IMG/VR virus record: IMGVR_UViG_3300047494_000029
Coordinates: 1-30,174 of that record
DNA: 30,174 nucleotides
Strand: one strand, 5' to 3'
Source: a virus
Shown: piece by piece, positions 7,558-28,376 of the stretch
How the letters are laid out: each line of letters opens with the position of its first letter
How positions within the stretch are numbered: position 1 is the first letter of the stretch
Notes under the pieces: model-generated
What the model was told of the DNA's origin: nothing
What the model saw: the letters and a program-made list of their open reading frames with translations, nothing else
The model's database searches: none
Program-made: the position numbers and the translations under genes

Positions 7558-8074
7558 TGGCCGCCGCTGGGGTCACGCCGGTCGGGATCGCCTGCACCGT
7601 GCCTTGGCTTACCGGCTCGGCGGTTTGCTGAGGTGACGCCTGAACGCTGGCCGGAGGTAGCGTCGTCGTCTGCGTCGAGACGAGGATGACTTCCTTGAGC
7701 GTGATGGTCACCGAGAGTATCGCCTCGGTCTTCTCGTCCGTGGTCTGGGCGAGGCTCTGGATCAGCATGTTCTGGTAGGATCGCTTGCCGGTGACGACAT
7801 CGATCAGTGTCCGGTTCGCCTGGAGCGCGAGAAGCCGGGCGTAGGTGTCGACGGCATAGCTCTCGCTGCCGCCCCCTTGTGCGCTGGAATTCGACCAGCC
7901 GGCGCGCAGCACCAGCTGGGCTGGGTTGCGGTAGGCATGATCGGAGATCGCCGCGCCTTGCTCCACCGGATGCTCGGTGATGGTGAGGGTGTCGGTTCCG
8001 GTTTCCTCGATGGTGCAGTCGATGACGATACCGCCGATGGTCCGCTGCGGCGAGAGGGTGATGTTCTCGCTCAA
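7550..8074 (-). CDS. Dit-like baseplate/tail protein
   Basis: This 174-residue protein resembles the N-terminal domain of Dit-like tail proteins. It begins with a beta-rich RTIGGIVIDCTIEETGTDTL segment and an ITEHPVEQGAAISDHAYRNPAQLVLRAGWSN block. It then has a YARLLALQANRTLIDVVTGKRSYQNMLI motif and an EAILSVTITLKEVILV strand. The last 35 residues are a Pro/Gln/Thr-rich low-complexity tail. It probably joins the tail tube to the hub. Its ATG overlaps the tape-measure stop as ATGA. Confidence 0.82.
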   Translation of the reverse strand: MSENITLSPQRTIGGIVIDCTIEETGTDTLTITEHPVEQGAAISDHAYRNPAQLVLRAGWSNSSAQGGGSESYAVDTYARLLALQANRTLIDVVTGKRSYQNMLIQSLAQTTDEKTEAILSVTITLKEVILVSTQTTTLPPASVQASPQQTAEPVSQGTVQAIPTGVTPAAANG

Positions 8075-9960
8075 GATGCGGCGACCTTGAGCTGCCGGAT
8101 CATATCTCCGTTCACCCTCCCCTGCTCGTTCGCCACGGCGCGGCCGGTCGAGGCCGCATCGCCGGCGCCGTGGACATGGACATCGGTCTTTTGGCTGACG
8201 TGGACCGCGGCTCCCCCGCTTGCGAGGCGGCTATCTGAAAGGGCCGAGAGCGCCGCGGCGCCGCGCGCGAGATCGCCGGCGAGCCCGGCGCCGGGTCGCA
8301 TGAAACGGGCGAGATAATTGGTCATCGTCGCCGAAGCTGACCCAGCGCCCAGGACCGAAGCGCCCGCCTGGTCGCCGCCCTGAAGTTCCCAGAGCAGGTA
8401 CTTGAGCTGTTGATCGAGGGTCGGATTCGGGCCGAATAAACGGAACAGCCGCGCCTTGCGGTCGCCGAGCCATTGGCCGATGCCGAACGCCCCGCTCGTC
8501 GGGTTCACCGCATGGGGGTTGAGTCTGCTTTCCGCCGCGATGCCCGCGGTCAGGCCCCGCGACTGCTCGCCGGACAAACCGGCTTGACGGAAGAAGTCCA
8601 TGACCTGGGCGGCGACGGCGCCGTGGACGGCCTGAGCCCCTTGGGCGATCTGACCGGCGTGGAGAGCCGCCGCGCGGGCCATCGCCGACGCCCCGGCCTT
8701 CGTATCCGGCTTGCCGCTGATGACGTCCCATGCCCCACGCAGGGGATCGACGATTCCGGCCAGAAGGCTCTTACCGGCGCCCAGAAGATGGCCTCCCGCC
8801 GCGCCAGCGTCGCGGCGGGCGCCGACGGCGTCGCCGTGCCAGAGGTCGCCGAGGATGCGAAAGCCGGAGGCGACGGCGCGCACGGTCTCGGCCATGGTCC
8901 GGAGCATGTCGGTGATCTCCGACAGGAAGGTCTTGACGAGGATCTTCATCGCCCCGCCGAAGACCTGGCCGAGTAGCTTCAGGACCGGCGAAAGGGCGTC
9001 GGCGAGATCTCCGAAGGCGCTTTGCAGATCGGACACGCCACCGAGCGCGGCGTCGATCTGGTCCGACCATGCCGACCAGTCGATGAACGATGCCGCCCCG
9101 CGCTTCCAGGTCTCGAAGTCGCTGATCAGCGCGGTGATCCCGAGCGCTAGTGCGACGACACCGGCGACGACGGGACCGAGCAGAGCTAGAATGGGCGCGA
9201 GGACGAGAGCGAGGCCGATCAGCATGGTCGACCAGCCATTCGTCGCGGTGTCGGCCTCTTCGAGCCCCCGGATGACAGCCTCGATAGCCGGCATCACGCC
9301 GATCAGCACCCGGTCGGCGACGAGTTGCAGCATCGCAAGGACGTCGCGGACATCGTTCATGAACTTGTGCGAGGCTTCCGCCGCCGCCTGTTGGTCGACA
9401 CCGAGACGCTTCGCCATCTCGTGGTAGCGGTCGGAGAACTGGTCGCTGTCGCGCATGAGCGCCTGGAGCGTCAGCGCGTCGATCCCGAACCCTTGGGCGA
9501 TGCGCGCCGCCTGCCAGTACGGCAGGTTCTTCATCGCCTTGCCGAAGTCGTGGACGACATCCGTCATATCGCGAAGATCGCCGGTCGCGGTGCGGGTCTG
9601 GACGCCCAGGCTGTTGAGATAGCCCTCGCGCCCCGGGTTCATCCGCAGCGACTCGGCGACGTTCTCCAGCGCCGCTCGCATACCCTTGGCGGTGCCGCCG
9701 ACCTGGCCGAGGGCGAACTCGGCGGCGTGGATGTTCTCCACCGACGCGTGGATGCGCTGCGAGGCGTAGTAGAGGTCTTCGAACTGCTCGCCGATCTTGA
9801 CCACCGCGCCGACGACAACCGCGCCGGCCGCCTCCGTCGCGACGGCGAGTTCGGTAACGACCTTCGTCGCGCGCTTGACGCCTTCCTCGAACTTCTTGGC
9901 GTCGTCGATCTTGAACCCGAGGGCGACGAGAAATTCCTTGATGATGGTGGAATCGCTCAT
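8071..9960 (-). CDS. Tail tape measure protein with C-terminal lysozyme domain
   Basis: This 629-residue protein has a long helical N-terminal half, a hydrophobic segment at about residues 245-282 (likely membrane-inserting on injection), and Ala/Gly-rich linkers. Residues about 453-545 match the phage tail lysozyme family: VMDFFRQAGLSGEQSRGLTAGIAAES, with probable catalytic Glu477, followed by GAFGIGQWLGDRKARL. The tape measure sets tail length, and the lysozyme part opens peptidoglycan during DNA entry. The size fits a short contractile tail. It overlaps its neighbours on both sides by ATGA. Confidence 0.9.
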   Translation of the reverse strand: MSDSTIIKEFLVALGFKIDDAKKFEEGVKRATKVVTELAVATEAAGAVVVGAVVKIGEQFEDLYYASQRIHASVENIHAAEFALGQVGGTAKGMRAALENVAESLRMNPGREGYLNSLGVQTRTATGDLRDMTDVVHDFGKAMKNLPYWQAARIAQGFGIDALTLQALMRDSDQFSDRYHEMAKRLGVDQQAAAEASHKFMNDVRDVLAMLQLVADRVLIGVMPAIEAVIRGLEEADTATNGWSTMLIGLALVLAPILALLGPVVAGVVALALGITALISDFETWKRGAASFIDWSAWSDQIDAALGGVSDLQSAFGDLADALSPVLKLLGQVFGGAMKILVKTFLSEITDMLRTMAETVRAVASGFRILGDLWHGDAVGARRDAGAAGGHLLGAGKSLLAGIVDPLRGAWDVISGKPDTKAGASAMARAAALHAGQIAQGAQAVHGAVAAQVMDFFRQAGLSGEQSRGLTAGIAAESRLNPHAVNPTSGAFGIGQWLGDRKARLFRLFGPNPTLDQQLKYLLWELQGGDQAGASVLGAGSASATMTNYLARFMRPGAGLAGDLARGAAALSALSDSRLASGGAAVHVSQKTDVHVHGAGDAASTGRAVANEQGRVNGDMIRQLKVAAS

Positions 9961-10118
9961 CGCTTCTCCGCCAGCCTCCGGTCATTCTCAGCCCTGACGT
10001 CGAGCGCGTCGTTCATCCTGGCGATGTCTTCGAGGTCGAGGGTGCCGTCCTTCAGGCTCTCATACCGGCACGAACCGGCCAGGACGGGCCGCATCAGCCA
10101 GTCCGTGCCCTCGTTCAT
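9957..10118 (-). CDS. DUF6889-like protein, probable frameshift-expressed tail chaperone part
   Basis: The ATG at 10118 gives a 53-residue protein with the pattern WLMRPVLAGSCRYESLKDG and DLEDIARMNDALD, which I recognise as DUF6889. Its TGA overlaps the tape-measure ATG. The same frame stays open upstream into the end of the preceding chaperone gene. A -1 frameshift at the T-run there (10172-10178) would make a 205-residue fusion. That arrangement, with a short extension just before the tape measure, is the classical G/GT layout. The ORF may be translated alone from 10118, only as the fusion, or both. No good ribosome site precedes the ATG, which favours the fusion. Confidence 0.85.
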   Translation of the reverse strand: MNEGTDWLMRPVLAGSCRYESLKDGTLDLEDIARMNDALDVRAENDRRLAEKR

Positions 10119-10141
10119 GGCGATCAGGCGCGGGCCGCCGC

Positions 10142-10573
10142 TTACTTCGGTAGAGACCGTCGGAACGAAGAAAAAAAACCTTCCAGGTTCTCCTTGAGCA
10201 CGTTCCAGACGATCTGCAGCATCACGGCGCCGTCAATGTCGTCGAACATGAAGACGCCCGGCGCGGTCATCACCTTCTGCCAGCCCCGGTCGCCCTCGAC
10301 CTTACGGGAGACCGTGGCGAGGCTCGCGTTCATGATGGCCTCGACATCCGCGTCCGGCAGACGCGCGAGGGCTTCGAGGCCGGGGCCGAGGTCCGCGGCC
10401 GCAAGCACCTCGAGACCACCTTCCGGACCGCGAGCGGCTTGCGCCATCTGGGAGAGATTGCCGAACCCCGCGACGATCGGCGCGAGCTTGCGGAGGACGT
10501 TGGCCTGGGCGAAGGCGTTCATCCTGGCCGTGCGGTAGGTCTGGCCCGCGACCGCGAATGTGTCGTCGCTCAT
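10142..10573 (-). CDS. Tail assembly chaperone (zero-frame product)
   Basis: This 143-residue protein starts at the ATG overlapping the tube stop codon as ATGA (10573). It has an N-terminal TYRTARMNAFAQANVLRKLAPIVAGF region and then an acidic, helical body (LPDADVEAIMNASLATV). Its composition and place directly before the tape measure fit a gpG-type tail assembly chaperone. A run of eight T lies at 10171-10178, in zero frame GGT TTT TTT TCT, which contains the slippery heptamer T_TTT_TTT. Without a shift the protein ends ten codons later in RRSLPK. Confidence 0.8.
   Translation of the reverse strand: MSDDTFAVAGQTYRTARMNAFAQANVLRKLAPIVAGFGNLSQMAQAARGPEGGLEVLAAADLGPGLEALARLPDADVEAIMNASLATVSRKVEGDRGWQKVMTAPGVFMFDDIDGAVMLQIVWNVLKENLEGFFSSFRRSLPK
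10172..10178 (-). other. Putative -1 programmed frameshift site T_TTT_TTT
   Basis: In minus-strand sense the codons read GGT TTT TTT TCT, so X_XXY_YYZ is T_TTT_TTT, a classical slippery heptamer. Sliding back one base continues as TTC TTC GTT CCG and stays open without a stop into the DUF6889 frame, ending at 9957. The fusion would have 134 chaperone residues and 71 from the new frame. A homopolymer sequencing error of one base could also produce this picture. Confidence 0.7.
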
Positions 10574-11028
10574 CGCGCGGGTGACCCCGTGCCCAGCTGC
10601 ATGGTGAGCTTGCCGACGTTGAAGACCCATTCGTTCATCGGCCCGTCCTTGGAGTAGCCGACCGTGGGAAACTTCGCGAACGCGGCCTGACGGCCGACGT
10701 GGCTGTCGCCCCGCGCGATGTCGTTGCCGGTGATCACGTTCTGACCATGGTTGGCCGAGGACGTGGTCTGGAAGTGGTAGAGCTGGGACAGCTGCTGGTT
10801 GACCGGGGAGGTCTTCAAGAGTCGGATCGTGATCTTGCCTGCCTTGCCGGCATGCAACGAGTGCATCGCCTCGCCGTCGGCGCCGACGGTCATCGTGTCC
10901 TTGTCTTCTTCCATCTCGAAGGTGATACCCTCCTCGGCGACACCGGCGTCGGAGCCGATGTTGAAGGAACCGCCCGGCCCGGAGATCGAGGCCTTGAAGT
11001 CGAGAAAGCTATAGGTCTGCTGGGTCAT
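10570..11028 (-). CDS. Tail tube protein (DUF3277-like)
   Basis: This 152-residue protein begins TYSFLDFKASISGPGGSFNIGSDAGVAEEGITFEM, the DUF3277 pattern seen in KPP10-type myoviruses. A DTMTVGADGEAMHSLHAGKAGKITIRLLKTSPVN block follows, with a HDI-like GQNVITGNDIARGD segment. Family members form the inner tail tube polymer. The gene comes directly after the sheath gene and before the chaperone, the canonical position. Confidence 0.88.
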   Translation of the reverse strand: MTQQTYSFLDFKASISGPGGSFNIGSDAGVAEEGITFEMEEDKDTMTVGADGEAMHSLHAGKAGKITIRLLKTSPVNQQLSQLYHFQTTSSANHGQNVITGNDIARGDSHVGRQAAFAKFPTVGYSKDGPMNEWVFNVGKLTMQLGTGSPAR

Positions 11029-11038
11029 CGGTCAGCTC

Positions 11039-12520
11039 TCAGCGATTGAATGTCAGGGCGACGTTGGCGGTGTCGGTCGCGCCCGCGAATTTAGCGGCGA
11101 CCTGGAACCCCACCGACTTGCGGGCGGCGCGATCGGGCGTCGACTGAAGGGCGATCGGCGGCTGGTAGACGTAGTAGCCGGTCGGCATGAAGTCGCCGAG
11201 CGCGAGCTGGCCGAAGCCGCCCGAGGTCCACACCCCCGGCGCCACCAGACCGTTGACCACGCTCTGATCGAGCGCGGAGGTCGCGGCGTTGGTGATCAGC
11301 GCCTGGCCCGCGTCGGTCTGGGCGACCTTCGTCCCCACGCCCACGAAGAGGTTGAATACGTTGGTCTGGATCGCTCCGGCGAGCCAATCGGCGCCAGTGA
11401 TCTCGTCCAAGTAGGCCGGACCAGCCATGACGCCCGCTTCGAGAATCGCCACCCCGTTGGCGTAGGTTGCGCAATAGTTGCAGCGCTTGGCGTCCAGCGC
11501 GGAGGCCTGAGCCGCCGTGAGGCTCTCGGGAACGATGCCGGGCAGGCTCTGGTACATATAGTTGATCGCGGTTTTCGAACCCTGCCAGTTCACCGTGACC
11601 ATGCGGCCCATGACGGCGCACACCGCATAGGGATCGGTCGAGGAATACAGCACGAAGGTGCGGGTATACCCTGCCGCCATCAGAGCCGACGCAATGTCTG
11701 TGGTCAGCGCGCCGTTCGGAGCCGCCGCCTCCTGGGTGGTCACGAAGTAGACGTGCGGATTGACCGCGTCGGCCTGGACGTAGGCGGCGATCGCGAGGTG
11801 ATCGGCATCGGCCACGGCCGGCGACACCACGCTGAGACCGTAGAAGTAGGTGGCCAAGCCATCGAGGGCCTGGACCGCGGCGATCGCGGTCTCGGCGGCT
11901 TGCCCGGCGACGAGGCGAGCCCCTGTCGCCTGAGTGAGACCCAACAGCGTGGCGATGTTGGTCCCGGCTCCTGGCGTCCCCGGAAAGGCGAGGGTCGAGG
12001 CCGAGCCGGTGGTGCCGGAGGTGATGGTGAAGTTCGACCCGTTCCAAGAGCAGACCGCACCGCCGCTCAGGGCGGCGGTGACCGCGGCCGCCACGGCGTT
12101 GAGGTTCGATGCGGCCGCGAAGCTCAGTCCGGTGAGAGCTTGGACGGTCCCGTTGATGGTCACCGTCAGCGAGCCGCTCGTGATCGCGGTAAAGGCGCCG
12201 AGGGCTTGCGCGGCGGGCGCCAGGGCGCCCCCGATAAGCAGCCCACTTGTCGCGGTCTGGGCCCATCGTCCAATGAAGAGCTGCGTCGGAGACGGCGTCG
12301 CGGCGAAGAAGTCGACCGCCGCGAGATATTCCGGAGCGGTGGCGCCGAAATCGGCCGCGACCGCGCTGATCCCCGAATAGCTCCGCAGCCGCTGGCCGAC
12401 GTCGATGACGTTGGACGAGCCGAGGATCAGGGCGGAATTGACGTTGGCGTATTGAGCGCCGGAACTGCTGATCGTGTAGGCGACATTGATCAGCCTCGAA
12501 ACGGGCAGGCCTTGGCTCAT
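11039..12520 (-). CDS. Tail sheath protein (DUF3383)
   Basis: This 493-residue protein matches DUF3383 sheath proteins. It has an N-terminal INVAYTISSSGAQYANVNSALILGSSNVID segment, YSGISAVAADFGATAPEYLAA, and ATPSPTQLFIGRWAQ. The C-terminal domain contains YVFV/NVFNLFVGVGTKVAQTDAGQALITNA. It would polymerise around the tube and contract on infection. It proves the contractile-tail class of this phage. Its ATG overlaps the preceding stop as ATGA. Confidence 0.92.
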   Translation of the reverse strand: MSQGLPVSRLINVAYTISSSGAQYANVNSALILGSSNVIDVGQRLRSYSGISAVAADFGATAPEYLAAVDFFAATPSPTQLFIGRWAQTATSGLLIGGALAPAAQALGAFTAITSGSLTVTINGTVQALTGLSFAAASNLNAVAAAVTAALSGGAVCSWNGSNFTITSGTTGSASTLAFPGTPGAGTNIATLLGLTQATGARLVAGQAAETAIAAVQALDGLATYFYGLSVVSPAVADADHLAIAAYVQADAVNPHVYFVTTQEAAAPNGALTTDIASALMAAGYTRTFVLYSSTDPYAVCAVMGRMVTVNWQGSKTAINYMYQSLPGIVPESLTAAQASALDAKRCNYCATYANGVAILEAGVMAGPAYLDEITGADWLAGAIQTNVFNLFVGVGTKVAQTDAGQALITNAATSALDQSVVNGLVAPGVWTSGGFGQLALGDFMPTGYYVYQPPIALQSTPDRAARKSVGFQVAAKFAGATDTANVALTFNR

Positions 12521-21274: not shown

Positions 21275-22522
21275 TTACCCCGCGAGCCGCTCCCAAAGCG
21301 CGAGGCCACCGCGCTGTTGGATGACGCCGTCGAGGCCGTAGCGGATGGCGTCGATGGTGTGGTTATCCTTGTCCAGCAGGATCGGCAGGACATCGCCGGT
21401 CAGCTTGTCGACCTTGTAGCTGTAGACCCGGAACTCACGCGCGGTGTGCTCGCAGCGGGGATGGATGACGATGCGCCGGAAGCCCTTGAGATGGGCGATA
21501 CCGTCCTCGACCGAGCCCGACCATTTCTTGGCGCCGTCGATCTGGAAATCGCGCCGGCGCATGTAGCTGATGGTTTCGGGCCGGGCGCTGTCGGCCTTGA
21601 TCGGCCAGAACTTGACGTCGGGCACACCATCGAATTCGCGGCCGTCCGTGATCTTGCCGCCCGTGAACATGGTCGGGAGGTCCTCGATCTCGACCTCCGC
21701 GCCGACCACCTCATGGGTGATGAAAAGGCACTCGTCCTCGATGTAGAACCGGATCAGCGCGGTTGGGTCTTTCGAGAAGCCCCAGTCGGCGCCGAAGTAG
21801 AGCCGGGCGTTCGGGATTTCCTCGAAGGGCTCGATGGTGACACGGTTGCGGAAGACGATGGCCTCGGCGAGGGTGAGGTAGTCACCGAGCCATGTGTGGC
21901 CGAATTTCTGGACGTCGCGTTCCCGGTCGCCTTCCATCTCGTCGCGGAGGACGTCCGGGAACCAAGGGTTGTCCGTATAGTTTGCCCGCACGACGCAGGA
22001 GTTGCGGGGCGGTGCGTCGCCGCGAAGGAGAACGTCCACGGGGTCCGTGGCGACCTCGGGGTTCCATGAGAACCACAGCTCGGAGCCGGGCTTGCGGATC
22101 GTGGGACGCAGAAGATCGATACTGCGCTGTGAGAGCTTGTGTGCTTCCTCGCCCCAGCAGACGTCGATGCCTTCGAGTGACTTGATACTGTCGGCGGTAT
22201 AGTCGTTCATCCCGGCGTAGATGATGGAGCCGCCGCCGGGCGTGACCGTCAGCTCGTTCTGGCAGTCGAAGAGGTGGCCGACGCCGAATTGTTCGATCTT
22301 GTCTTCGATCAGTCGCTTCGCCGACTGTTTCAGTGTCCGCTGCACCTCGCGGACACAGAGCCCTCGAAAGCCGGGCCGCAGGATGGCCTGCTCGACCATT
22401 CCCCCTGCGAAAAAATGGCTCTTGCCGGATCCCCGGCCGCCGAACGCGCCCTTATACCGCGCCGGCTCCAGCAGCGGCTGGAACACCTCCGCTGTCGGGA
22501 TCTCCAGGACGGACGATGACAC
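21275..22522 (-). CDS. terL: Terminase large subunit
   Basis: This 415-residue protein has a clear ATPase Walker A, GGRGSGKS (residues 28-35), and a Walker B-like GIDVCWGEEAH near 118-128. Its nuclease part has GADWGFSKDPT (about 243) and a terminal DNHTIDAIRYGLDG motif, with the acidic metal-binding residues intact. It belongs to the PBSX/T4-like large terminase group. It drives DNA packaging and cuts concatemers. It overlaps the small subunit by 71 bp. Confidence 0.93.
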   Translation of the reverse strand: MSSSVLEIPTAEVFQPLLEPARYKGAFGGRGSGKSHFFAGGMVEQAILRPGFRGLCVREVQRTLKQSAKRLIEDKIEQFGVGHLFDCQNELTVTPGGGSIIYAGMNDYTADSIKSLEGIDVCWGEEAHKLSQRSIDLLRPTIRKPGSELWFSWNPEVATDPVDVLLRGDAPPRNSCVVRANYTDNPWFPDVLRDEMEGDRERDVQKFGHTWLGDYLTLAEAIVFRNRVTIEPFEEIPNARLYFGADWGFSKDPTALIRFYIEDECLFITHEVVGAEVEIEDLPTMFTGGKITDGREFDGVPDVKFWPIKADSARPETISYMRRRDFQIDGAKKWSGSVEDGIAHLKGFRRIVIHPRCEHTAREFRVYSYKVDKLTGDVLPILLDKDNHTIDAIRYGLDGVIQQRGGLALWERLAG

Positions 22523-22871: not shown

Positions 22872-23640
22872 CGTCACCTTCCAACTGGGCCAGGCGCTCG
22901 GCGGCGAGATCGACGACGTAGCGGATCGCCATGGCGCTGTTCATGATCTGGGCCTTGGTCTTCGCCTTCACGACGAGGTCGAAGAACGCGGCGAAATCGG
23001 CATACGCCGCTGCGTGGATAGTCGCCTTCGGTCCAAAGCCCTTCAGCGCCGTGGTCACGACCGCCTCGTCGTCGGGCAGGAAGAGCAGCGTGATCTCGCG
23101 ATAAGGCAGACCGACCGAGACGCCCGGCAGGGGACCAAGTTCGGCGCCCTTCAAGATGCTGTCGTCGAGGCCGCTGTAGAGCTTGGCGCCCATGTCGAGG
23201 CCCTGGAACATCTGCGCCAACAGACCTGGTTCGTCCTGACCGGTGATGGCGTTGTGGCTGATCTGGAGCGCGACCTTGCGCTCTTCGCTCAGGAAGGAAG
23301 TGATGCGGATCACCGCGACCTTTGGCAGGTCCGCCGAGATCGCCGCATCGACCCGGTGATGACCGGAGATGATCTCTTCGGCCATATCCCCGAAGCGGTA
23401 GGTCAGCGGCGTGGAGGTCAGGACCCCGTCCTGGCGGACGTTGGCGTCGAGACGGTCGGCCTGCGCCTTCGTCATGAACCGCGCGTTGATGGCTTGGCGC
23501 TTCAGGCTCCGAGGATCGACCTCGACCAGTTCGGTTTCGAGCGGTCCCCAGCCGTCAGCGACCGCGGCCGCCCCGGTTGCCGGCTCCGCCGTCGCGTTGC
23601 TGGAGCCACCAGCGGAGGGCGGCGTCGAAGGTTTCGTCAA
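22855..23640 (-). CDS. ParB-fold domain protein upstream of terminase
   Basis: This 261-residue protein has a ParB/Srx-type N-terminal domain: ELVEVDPRSLKRQAINARFM, ADRLDANVRQDGVL, and a SGHHRVDAA motif (residues 92-96 at SGHHR, equivalent to the GERR box of ParB). It then has RITSFLSEERKVALQISHNAITGQDEPG. Its C-terminal half is helical and lacks an obvious partition HTH. Similar proteins are often encoded beside terminases. They are thought to bind DNA or nucleotides; the role here is not known. The ATG reading overlaps the upstream gene by 86 bp. Confidence 0.78.
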   Translation of the reverse strand: MTKPSTPPSAGGSSNATAEPATGAAAVADGWGPLETELVEVDPRSLKRQAINARFMTKAQADRLDANVRQDGVLTSTPLTYRFGDMAEEIISGHHRVDAAISADLPKVAVIRITSFLSEERKVALQISHNAITGQDEPGLLAQMFQGLDMGAKLYSGLDDSILKGAELGPLPGVSVGLPYREITLLFLPDDEAVVTTALKGFGPKATIHAAAYADFAAFFDLVVKAKTKAQIMNSAMAIRYVVDLAAERLAQLEGDDGEPS

Positions 23641-24892
23641 TGCGGTCGCCTCGATACTGCAGCTGGTAGCCCGCCCCGGTGCTGGTCCGCTTGATGACGT
23701 CGTAGACGCCGCGGTACTTCATCGAGGCCGCGCCGTCCGAGACGGCCGTGGTCTCGACGCCCTCCCATCGGCGCATCGAGCGGGCGCCGGCCAGATCGAG
23801 GATCGCGGCGTTGAGGCTGAGGCGTGAGACCAGCTTCGAGAGCCTGCCCTCGCGAGAGGTGGCGACGTCGCTCATCAGGTAGAGGTCGGGCCGGCCGAAG
23901 TTCGGCAAGGTGTAGGTCAGGACGCCGGCGAGGCGACGATCCAGCCATATCAGGAAGTTCCACATGCCCGGCGACGCAGCGATCGAGCGCTTCAGGAAGA
24001 TGCTGCGCACAAACATCGCGCGGGCGCCATCGATCTCGGTGACCTCGACCTTCGAGGCCTTCGTCGCCTTAAGCGGTTCCGCGCGCTCGAAGGGGAACGC
24101 CTTCATGGGACGGCGGCCGACCCGCAAAGCGGACTTGGCGTCGGAGGCATAGACCCGATAGCGCTTCTCGCTCGGCATGATGCAGAGCGCCGCCGGCTTC
24201 ATGCCGTCGATCTCGACGTCGGTCACCAGGATGAATTGAGCGCGCTGCTCGGCTAGGCCTCGCACGGTGGCGACGATCAGGTCTGGGGTGATCTTTTCGA
24301 AGGCCGGAGCCGCCCAGGTGACGTTCTCAGCGAGGCGCTTCACCGCCGGCGCTCGCCCCTTGGCGCCGACGAAGGGAGGAAAGGCGAGGATGGGCCGGTC
24401 CAGGTCGATGGCCGCCCGGAGCTGGGTTGTCCAGTCGGAGGCGAGGAATCCGGACAGCAGCGGGAGATGAGGGAACGCCGAAGCGATGTGGGCCTCGAAC
24501 GCATCCAGGCGGGCCGCCAGGTCGCAGCTCAGCGCCGCCCGCATTCCGCGCTTGTAGGCGCTATCGCTCCCGCCGAGGAAGCCAGCATATTCCAGGCCGA
24601 AGTGAAGAGCCGCCAGACGTCGGCGAGGCTCCGGGCCCGCCGCCACCTCGAGGAACGCCAGCGGGCCCGTGAACTGGAACGCCAGGGCGCGCCCGGCCAG
24701 ATACTCCCCGGTCGCGCAGGACAACAACGAGACATCGTTGCCCCAGAGATCGGCCGTCGGCAGCGCCTGCCCGATCAATCGCTCGAGCTTGAACGCGCCC
24801 GAGCAAGCCACCCTCCACTCATCTCCCCCAATCCGAGAAATGAGCGGGAAGACTTGCTCGACTATTGGCTTTGCAAGTGTACCTAGAGACAT
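23555..24892 (-). CDS. Putative DNA-modification protein: methyltransferase-like N-terminus, Mom-like C-terminus
   Basis: The ATG at 24892 gives 445 residues; a TTG at 24904 is also possible. Residues 28-39 (VACSGAFKLERL), 51-62 (GNDVSLLSCATG) and FPPF (171-174) resemble motif I, acidic motif and DPPY-type motif of adenine methyltransferases, as in the family annotated as putative antirestriction adenine methyltransferase. The C-terminal part has LYLMSDVATS, RLSKLVSRLSL and SMKYRG (390-395), which I associate with Mu Mom-like GNAT proteins acting on adenine in DNA. The resemblance is from memory. It would protect phage DNA against restriction. It heads the late block and lies divergent from the plus-strand module. 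Confidence 0.6.
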   Translation of the reverse strand: MSLGTLAKPIVEQVFPLISRIGGDEWRVACSGAFKLERLIGQALPTADLWGNDVSLLSCATGEYLAGRALAFQFTGPLAFLEVAAGPEPRRRLAALHFGLEYAGFLGGSDSAYKRGMRAALSCDLAARLDAFEAHIASAFPHLPLLSGFLASDWTTQLRAAIDLDRPILAFPPFVGAKGRAPAVKRLAENVTWAAPAFEKITPDLIVATVRGLAEQRAQFILVTDVEIDGMKPAALCIMPSEKRYRVYASDAKSALRVGRRPMKAFPFERAEPLKATKASKVEVTEIDGARAMFVRSIFLKRSIAASPGMWNFLIWLDRRLAGVLTYTLPNFGRPDLYLMSDVATSREGRLSKLVSRLSLNAAILDLAGARSMRRWEGVETTAVSDGAASMKYRGVYDVIKRTSTGAGYQLQYRGDRIDETFDAALRWWLQQRDGGAGNRGGRGR

Positions 24893-24898
24893 AACCTC

Positions 24899-24926
24899 TT
24901 GCAAAATAAGAAGAGAGTGCTATGTT
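24899..24926 (+). promoter_or_regulatory. Promoter-like sequence for the plus-strand module
   Basis: TTGCAA (24899-24904) and TATGTT (24921-24926) are separated by 16 bp. Transcription would reach the ATG at 24962 after a short leader. The same -10 and spacer recur at 27068-27095. The region is the only gap between the divergent blocks, so a late-block promoter for the minus strand probably also lies within 24893-24961, though none is clear. Confidence 0.45.
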
Positions 24927-25436: not shown

Positions 25437-25829
25437 ATGGCCTACATCAATCAGCAGAAGAAATCGGAAATCGTCGCGGCGGCCAAGGCGGCCCTGCCAA
25501 AGGACTGGACCGTCAGCTTCAGCATCTCGCACCACTCTACCCTCGTCGCCACCATCACCAAGGCTCCGGCCTCGGTTCTCGACGACTACAAGGCCCCGGA
25601 GGCGGGCTACAGCCGCCCCTACGTCAACCACCACCATCTCGCCAACTGCTGGTCCGGCGAGGCGTTCAAGGTTCTCGACGCCCTCCGTGGCGTCATGATG
25701 ATCGGCAACCACGACCGCAGCGACAGCCAGTCCGACTACTTCGATGTCGGCTGGTATGTCGAAATCCAGTTCGGCAAGCGGAACAAGCCCTGCGTCTTCA
25801 CCGCTTCGGCCGAAGAGGTGGCGGCGTGA
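25437..25829 (+). CDS. LPD29-like protein
   Basis: This 130-residue protein begins AYINQQKKSEIVAAAKAALPKDWTVSFSISHHSTLVATI and ends with MMIGNHDRSDSQSDYFDVGWYVEIQFGKRNKPCVF. This matches the LPD29 domain found on plasmids, phages and large polyvalent proteins. The GNHDxSDxQxDYFDVGWY block is the clearest part. Its molecular function is unknown. AAGGA lies seven bases before the start. Its stop overlaps the radC-like start (ATGA-type overlap). Confidence 0.82.
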   Translation: MAYINQQKKSEIVAAAKAALPKDWTVSFSISHHSTLVATITKAPASVLDDYKAPEAGYSRPYVNHHHLANCWSGEAFKVLDALRGVMMIGNHDRSDSQSDYFDVGWYVEIQFGKRNKPCVFTASAEEVAA

Positions 25830-26473
25830 CCCAGCGCGACCTCTTCGTTTCCGAACCCATCGCCGCAGTAGAGCCGATCTTCGGCGGCGACGTCGAGGGC
25901 CACGATTTCCGCGTCCTCGCCGACCTCGTGGGCTCCGGCGCGGCTCGGACCCTGCTCGCCCGCTTCGGCAACCTCGCCGACGCCGCCTCGGCCGATCCGG
26001 TGGCCGTGGAACGGGAGGTCGGCGCCACGGCCGCGAAAACGCTTCGGGCGGTGCAGCGCGCTGCCTACGCCATGGCGGGGTCTCGGGTAAATCGTCGGCA
26101 ACTCCTGACGACGTGGGGCGCCCTGACCGAATACCTGATGACGACCCTGGCGGGTCTGCCGCGCGAGCAATTCCGGGTCCTGTTCCTCGACAAGAAAAAC
26201 CAGCTCATCGCCGACGAACTCATGGGCATCGGCACGGTGGACCATGCTCCGGCTTATCCGCGCGAGGTCATCCGTCGAGCCCTCGAGCTCAACGCCTCAG
26301 CCATCTTCCTGACCCACAATCACCCGAGCGGCGATCCGGCGCCGTCGCCCGGTGATGTCTCCATGACGCGCCAGATGAAGGACGCCTGTAAGGCCGTGGG
26401 CCTGACACTCCACGATCACGTCGTCGTCAGCCGCGCGGGCTGTGCCAGCCTCCAAGCGCTGGGGCTAATCTGA
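25826..26473 (+). CDS. radC: RadC/JAB-family protein
   Basis: This 215-residue protein has the full RadC domain: an N-terminal helix-hairpin-helix-like region and a C-terminal JAMM metalloprotease-like domain with FLTHNHPSGDP. His164, His166, Ser174 and Asp177 fit the HxH-x7-S-x2-D zinc motif, so the site is intact. GHDFRVLADLVGSGAARTLLARFG is the N-terminal part, and the family's V(V/I)SRAG-type end is present. RadC-like genes are common on phages and plasmids; the in vivo role is unsettled. It is overlapped at its end by a small ORF. Confidence 0.92.
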   Translation: MTQRDLFVSEPIAAVEPIFGGDVEGHDFRVLADLVGSGAARTLLARFGNLADAASADPVAVEREVGATAAKTLRAVQRAAYAMAGSRVNRRQLLTTWGALTEYLMTTLAGLPREQFRVLFLDKKNQLIADELMGIGTVDHAPAYPREVIRRALELNASAIFLTHNHPSGDPAPSPGDVSMTRQMKDACKAVGLTLHDHVVVSRAGCASLQALGLI

Positions 26474-27138: not shown

Positions 27139-27522
27139 ATGGCCAGAACCCGCCGCTCTTACGACGCCCGCACCGGCCGCGACAGCCGGTCAGCCTCCAT
27201 CCTCGCCGCCGCCTTCTGCGCCAAGCCCGAACCTCGGGTCTATGACCTCGACGGAAACTGGCTCCGGGTCTGGAAGAAGGACGAGCTGCAGCGCTGGACG
27301 CACGACCAGGTCGCCTCGGCCCTTGGCGGCAAACGCGCCTTTGAGCGGGTCGAACTCAACGAAACCATCCCCCCGACCGCGGTGAAGCATGCCCTAACCA
27401 AGGGCTGGTTGTGGGCCGACGCTTCCGACCTGCTTTGGGTCACGGAAGCCGGCGCCACGGAATTGAAGTTGCCCCGCAAGGTCGGCGGCGTCACCATCCG
27501 CTTCCTGAAGAAGGCGGCATGA
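27139..27522 (+). CDS. Hypothetical protein upstream of ParB
   Basis: The start is the ATG at 27139 with GGAG nine bases upstream; an ATG at 27091 is inside the promoter. The 127-residue product has a basic N-terminus (ARTRRSYDARTGRDSRSA), a DLDGNWLRVWKKDELQRWTHDQV segment, and a C-terminal TAVKHALTKGWLWADASDLLWVTEAGATELKLPR part resembling a winged-helix domain. A DNA-binding function is possible but not shown. Its TGA overlaps the ParB ATG. Confidence 0.65.
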   Translation: MARTRRSYDARTGRDSRSASILAAAFCAKPEPRVYDLDGNWLRVWKKDELQRWTHDQVASALGGKRAFERVELNETIPPTAVKHALTKGWLWADASDLLWVTEAGATELKLPRKVGGVTIRFLKKAA

Positions 27523-28376
27523 CCATGGTCGACGTCCTTCCCCTCGACCAGATCGATCCGAACCCAGATCAACCCCGCAAGGAGTTCGACGAGGCCGCGC
27601 TGCGCGAGCTGGCCGACAGCATCATCGCCGAAGGCCTGATGCAGCCGATCACCGTCACGCCCCGCCGAGGCCGCTACATGATCGTCGCCGGCGAACGGCG
27701 CTGGCGGGCTCACAAGCTCGCGGGTCTGGCCACCATCCGGGCCCAGGTGCAGGAACTCGACGACGCGGCCGTGATGGTTCAGGCGCTGATCGAGAACGCG
27801 GTCAGGCGCGACGTCAATCCGCTGGAAGAGGCGGTCGCCTATCAGCGGTGCCTGGACTTGGGCGTCACCACGGAGGACCTCGCCCGACGTCTCGGCATCC
27901 GGCAGGTCTGGCGGATCGACGAGCGGCTCTGTCTGCTGCGGCTTCGGCCGGAGTACCAGGACCTGCTACGGAAGCGGCAGATCGGCAACTCGGAGGCCTA
28001 TGAGTTGGCCCAACTGTCGCCATCCGGGCAAGACCGGCTCTTCGCCCGTATCCGAGCCGGCGAGTGCCGAACGTTCAACGAGCTTCGCGCCGCCAGCCTC
28101 GAAATCAGGGAGAGCGAGCGGGTGGTGGATATGTTCGCCCAGGACGCCGACAAGCTGACCGAGTCGGAACGCCGCGCCGCCCGATCGCTGGAGAGCCGTT
28201 TCGCCCAGGTGGTGAAGCTGTTGCGGGCCTCGACGGTCAACAACGAGGTTGTCGCGATCCGGAAGGTCAACCCGGACCGGGCCGGCCATCTCGCCGTCTT
28301 GGCCCATGAGATGCGGGCCGAGCTGGCGAGGATCGAGCGGGCGCTGGCGACCGCGGCTCTTGCGGAGGCGGCGTGA
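27519..28376 (+). CDS. ParB/RepB-like partition protein
   Basis: The start is the ATG overlapping the previous stop (27519), giving 285 residues; a reading from 27411 goes through another gene. It has LPLDQIDPNPDQPRKEFDEAALRELADSI, the QPITVTPRRGRYMIVAGERRWRAHKLAG box (GERR at residues 58-61), IENAVRRDVNPLEEAVAYQRCLD, and an HTH-like GVTTEDLARRLGIRQVWRIDERLCLLRL. These are the standard N-terminal and HTH motifs of chromosomal and plasmid ParB proteins. No ParA lies nearby. Possible roles are DNA binding, phage-plasmid maintenance or regulation. Confidence 0.88.
   Translation: MTMVDVLPLDQIDPNPDQPRKEFDEAALRELADSIIAEGLMQPITVTPRRGRYMIVAGERRWRAHKLAGLATIRAQVQELDDAAVMVQALIENAVRRDVNPLEEAVAYQRCLDLGVTTEDLARRLGIRQVWRIDERLCLLRLRPEYQDLLRKRQIGNSEAYELAQLSPSGQDRLFARIRAGECRTFNELRAASLEIRESERVVDMFAQDADKLTESERRAARSLESRFAQVVKLLRASTVNNEVVAIRKVNPDRAGHLAVLAHEMRAELARIERALATAALAEAA

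Follow-up and report, generated by a model that had tools for sequence, protein, structure and literature searches.

A conserved putative -1 frameshift joins a Phage_TAC_15 tail assembly chaperone to DUF6889 next to the tape measure gene

Introduction

Is the small DUF6889 region, which in the virus genome studied here lies between a tail assembly chaperone gene and the tape measure gene, a gene of its own or the end of a longer chaperone made by a shift of reading frame? The production of a second, longer protein by a one-base slip of the ribosome is well known among tailed phages. In phage lambda, the short form of such a chaperone has the tape measure protein as its binding partner, and the extension has tail tube subunits (PMC5009743). 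An earlier note on the present DNA had proposed that a -1 frameshift at a T run joins the chaperone to DUF6889 in a G/GT-type layout, and had warned that a one-base homopolymer error could mimic it. Here, we evaluate this proposal in the window (the whole stretch of DNA analysed, 30,174 nucleotides) and in its relatives.

Results

Locus layout and slip site

The chaperone gene lies between the tail tube gene and the tape measure gene (Table 1), which is the position of a G/GT-type chaperone, and the tape measure protein is its presumed client. Its product belongs to Phage_TAC_15 (78.9 bits, E 6.2e-22, cut-off 22), also matches PHROG 1688 (tail assembly chaperone), and ends at a stop codon at 10144-10142 (minus strand). 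Beyond the tube gene, the DUF3383 gene occupies a position that is labelled tail sheath in the records of phages Magia, BgManors32 and SEN34. Elsewhere in the window, a single predicted protein (23555-24904, minus strand) combines phage DNA-adenine-methylase-like and phage GNAT-like domains and may belong to a DNA modification module, while RadC-like and ParB (ParB_N + HTH) genes (25826-26473 and 27411-28376) are found on the plus strand, opposite to the structural genes.

Table 1. Features of the tail locus in the window
Feature	Coordinates	Strand	Basis
Tape measure protein with tail lysozyme domain	8071..9960	-	PHROG 2276 E 1.5e-58, TIGR01760, Phage_lysozyme2
Predicted frameshift product (TAC-NC, 'GT'-type), 205 aa	9957..10573	-	Joined translation
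-1 frame extension (TAC-C, 'T'-type), 71 aa after slip	9957..10172	-	Open frame, TGA 9959-9957
DUF6889 region (PF21829), inside the extension, from first in-frame ATG	9957..10118	-	Pfam 69.5-70.5 bits
Tail assembly chaperone, short form (TAC-N, 'G'-type), 143 aa	10142..10573	-	Phage_TAC_15 (PF21822)
Slippery heptamer T_TTT_TTT in chaperone frame, part of T8 run 10178-10171	10172..10178	-	Sequence
SD-like AAGGAG, 11 nt upstream of heptamer, candidate frameshift stimulator	10190..10195	-	Sequence
Tail tube-type structural protein (KPP10_Orf10)	10570..11028	-	PF11681, 173 bits
DUF3383 protein, tail sheath position	11039..12520	-	PF11863, 394 bits

At the end of the chaperone, the minus strand reads GAG AAC CTG GAA GGT TTT TTT TCT TCG TTC. 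As the earlier note had it, the codons GGT TTT TTT TCT are present at 10180-10169, and the heptamer within them (10178-10172) stands in the chaperone frame. The T8 run to which it belongs is the longest A or T run of the window, the sole other run of at least six being a T6 at 22415. Besides, GGT TTT TTT is atypical usage, because in the main minus-strand genes of the window phenylalanine is mostly encoded by TTC (223 of 261 codons; TTC:TTT 223:38) and glycine by GGT in 108 of 749 codons.

Shine-Dalgarno-like elements upstream of a slip site are known to stimulate -1 shifts, as established for dnaX. The AAGGAG of the window stands at such a stimulatory distance and forms a duplex with the anti-SD of -8.5 kcal/mol, compared with -6.3 for synonymous shuffles. 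An SD-like tetramer occurs at this position in only 42% of the relatives, so that the signal is not family-wide. No significant structure was predicted in the downstream fold after the slip site of the window (z above 0), and across the family downstream folding is modest (mean z -0.95 versus -0.23 in a control region).

After a -1 slip, the new frame stays open for 71 codons from 10172, without a stop until the TGA at 9959-9957, and ends adjoining the tape measure gene, which starts at 9960. The ATG of DUF6889 (10118-10116) is in this -1 frame, 54 bases downstream of the slip point, and the coordinates that the earlier note had given are confirmed. The extension contains DUF6889 (PF21829, 70.5 bits; cut-off 23.9), and its DUF6889 region also matches PHROG 4364, for which the function is listed as unknown. 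An open -1 frame in the window alone is weak evidence, because base shuffling leaves the 71 codons free of stops in 12.8% of cases, and the portion upstream of the ATG in 69%. The codon usage described above is more suggestive. The comparison of this sequence with its relatives is far stronger evidence for the putative shift.

Register and slip site in the relatives

Relatives were gathered by aligning the chaperone and the extension, with the best 80 matches of each scan retained, and from phage records, resulting in 166 loci including the window, or 92 after crude dereplication; these loci are related to each other, and the counts given here ignore their phylogenetic non-independence. In all 166 loci (92 dereplicated), DUF6889 is encoded in the -1 frame with respect to the chaperone, and this frame has no stop back to within the chaperone end, so that a conserved second domain lies in a -1 frame that is open from the slip. 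No phage among the 166 loci had DUF6889 out of register or a -1-frame stop between the slip and DUF6889. All 54 extensions scanned matched PF21829, and all 42 chaperones scanned matched PF21822. Since 29 of the 92 loci (window included) entered through the chaperone search, the presence of DUF6889 behind the relatives in this group was not selected for, and a canonical heptamer is found in 27 of these 29. Among 385 sampled genomes of the class to which a Kaistia genome belongs, DUF6889 was found in the Kaistia genome only, so that sampling on the host side contributed no further loci.

An in-frame X_XXY_YYZ heptamer is present at the same place, the end of the chaperone domain, in 85 of the 92 dereplicated loci. 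The most common types are TTTTTTT (35), TTTTTTC (23), TTTTTTG (10) and AAATTTT (7), with GGGTTTT (3), GGGAAAT (2), CCCTTTT/C (4) and AAATTTC (1) as rarer forms. The heptamer falls in the chaperone phase in those 85 loci versus 35 and 7 loci in the other two phases, part of the 35 deriving from T runs that exceed one heptamer. Among the codons for phenylalanine, TTT is enriched over TTC, with TTT:TTC of 136:46 at the slip zone (set by the domain end, not by the heptamer) versus 182:280 elsewhere in the chaperone genes (Fisher P 3e-16). The seven loci without a canonical heptamer retain a TTT or TTC able to re-pair in the -1 frame (e.g., CCT TTT ATC and AAT TTT ATG). In two loci (L003 and L165), the slip site is GGGAAAT followed by ACT TTC, without a T run, indicating that the slippery function is retained there despite the changed bases. 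The comparison of homologous loci that the earlier note had called for, thus, found both the -1 register kept and the slip site conserved among the loci compared.

Expression of DUF6889

DUF6889 might also be a separate small gene with a start codon of its own (ATG 10118), its translation being coupled to termination of the chaperone. In-frame ATGs are indeed present in the window and in 47 of the 92 relatives, and a separate CDS has been annotated in BgManors32 (gp60) and in Hafnia phage yong1. On the other hand, 30 of the 92 loci contain no ATG, GTG or TTG between the slip and the DUF6889 core, a further 15 contain GTG or TTG only, and the start is preceded by an SD-like tetramer in only 5; in the window, no SD-like sequence was found before the ATG. 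Besides, the residues after the slip are best conserved in the -1 frame (mean BLOSUM 0.14, compared with -0.31 in the 0 frame and -0.52 in the +1 frame), with the pattern FF-x-R-x-P, and an own start leaves this open and conserved frame upstream of any start unexplained. We therefore regard own-start translation of DUF6889 as unlikely.

Production of the long form by slippage of the RNA polymerase on the T run, rather than by the ribosome, appears even less likely. The run of eight T's in the window is close to the size from which RNA polymerase starts to slip. Transcriptional slippage cannot, however, be the mechanism shared by these loci, some of which carry GGGAAAT (without a T run), CCCTTTT, CCCTTTC or AAATTTC at the slip site instead of a long homopolymer, and the shared mechanism must therefore be ribosomal. 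The least likely explanation, although homopolymers are error-prone and the window comes from one record of an uncultivated virus, is that the T8 arose by a sequencing error or a recent frame mutation, the real gene being either one in-frame fusion or a pair of unrelated frames. Neither protein domain is disrupted, and eight T's give exactly the -1 register common to all 166 loci, while seven (+1) or nine (in-frame) would violate it and give registers unseen in the relatives, which makes the homopolymer error that the earlier note had feared very unlikely.

Predicted structures

The predicted structure of the chaperone (10145-10573) has a mean pLDDT of 84.9, and that of the extension (DUF6889) is a small three-helix domain with a mean pLDDT of 83.1. 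The best match of the chaperone model is PDB 5ir0, ORF19 of a Vibrio cholerae PICI-like element, and is borderline (Z 8.7, 96 residues, 2.9 A). Comparison of the DUF6889 model with solved and viral structures gave no convincing match (best Z 2.8), and sequence searches of solved structures with the chaperone and the extension gave chance-level matches only.

Discussion

Based on the conserved register and slip site, we consider it very probable that the locus encodes a tail assembly chaperone in two forms by -1 programmed ribosomal frameshifting. Most ribosomes would keep the chaperone frame and terminate at its stop codon, giving the 143-aa short form. From the sequence, we infer that a shift would take place in vivo with an efficiency at which a minority of ribosomes slip back one base on T_TTT_TTT, with the tRNAs re-pairing after the slip, and continue in the -1 frame, which would add DUF6889 at the end of a 205-aa form. 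On the model of lambda gpG/gpGT, the tape measure protein would then be coated by the chaperone part and tail tube subunits recruited through DUF6889, and both forms would leave before the tail is completed. Position and predicted mode of expression point to DUF6889 as the probable T-type extension of the chaperone.

The programmed frameshift predicted at this locus is well conserved and belongs to a known kind. The locus shares with lambda gpG/gpGT the layout of a -1-frameshifted two-form tail chaperone placed before the tape measure, but unlike lambda it is of the contractile-tail type, combines Phage_TAC_15 with DUF6889, and has its slip usually on phenylalanine codons (T_TTT_TTN). Direct homologues have been annotated independently as tape measure chaperone frameshift products in Klebsiella phage Mulock (MN098327) and Burkholderia phage Magia (MT701587), where a joined -1 CDS covers the homologous chaperone and extension in the same layout as the joined translation of the window. 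The programmed frameshift is stated in the announcement of Magia (PMC7883833). The slip site of Mulock (AAT TTT TTG) differs from the T_TTT_TTT of the window, and both records are single-genome annotations in which DUF6889 is not named. In many other phage records, the DUF6889 region is unannotated or called a separate gene.

A comparative study of 2025 on the Pakpunavirus Adele, Vandenendeviridae and Andersonviridae also demonstrated a -1 frameshift in a TAC-N/TAC-NC locus, where the end of TAC-N carries a GTTTTT motif (PMC12846349). Phage KPP10, which has tail genes of the Pakpunavirus Adele type, carries a Phage_TAC_15 chaperone like that of the window, and in its locus (7660-8288) we found a GTT TTT C site followed by an open -1 extension that does not match DUF6889. 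Phage_TAC_15 chaperones are therefore followed by at least two different -1 extensions. The frameshift reading of the G/GT-type layout proposed in the earlier note holds in every relative examined, but the arrangement is not new, having been annotated in Mulock and Magia and described for related Pakpunavirus-type loci.

It is likely that the whole DUF6889 family is a frameshift-only C-terminal domain of Phage_TAC_15 chaperones, and one of several interchangeable extensions. No papers on DUF6889 or Phage_TAC_15 were found in the literature searched, and within that literature the assignment of DUF6889, across the family, to a frameshift-made C-terminal domain appears to be unpublished, which is the modest new part of this work.

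Conclusions

In the current study, the general knowledge of tail building in tailed phages is left unchanged, and the findings concern the DUF6889 family and its slip site, which seems to be kept by function while its bases vary. They would also correct a frequent mis-annotation in phages that infect many different hosts, in whose records DUF6889 is missing or called as a separate gene. Overall, these results indicate how DUF6889, for which Pfam lists no known function, is probably expressed and which role it probably has.
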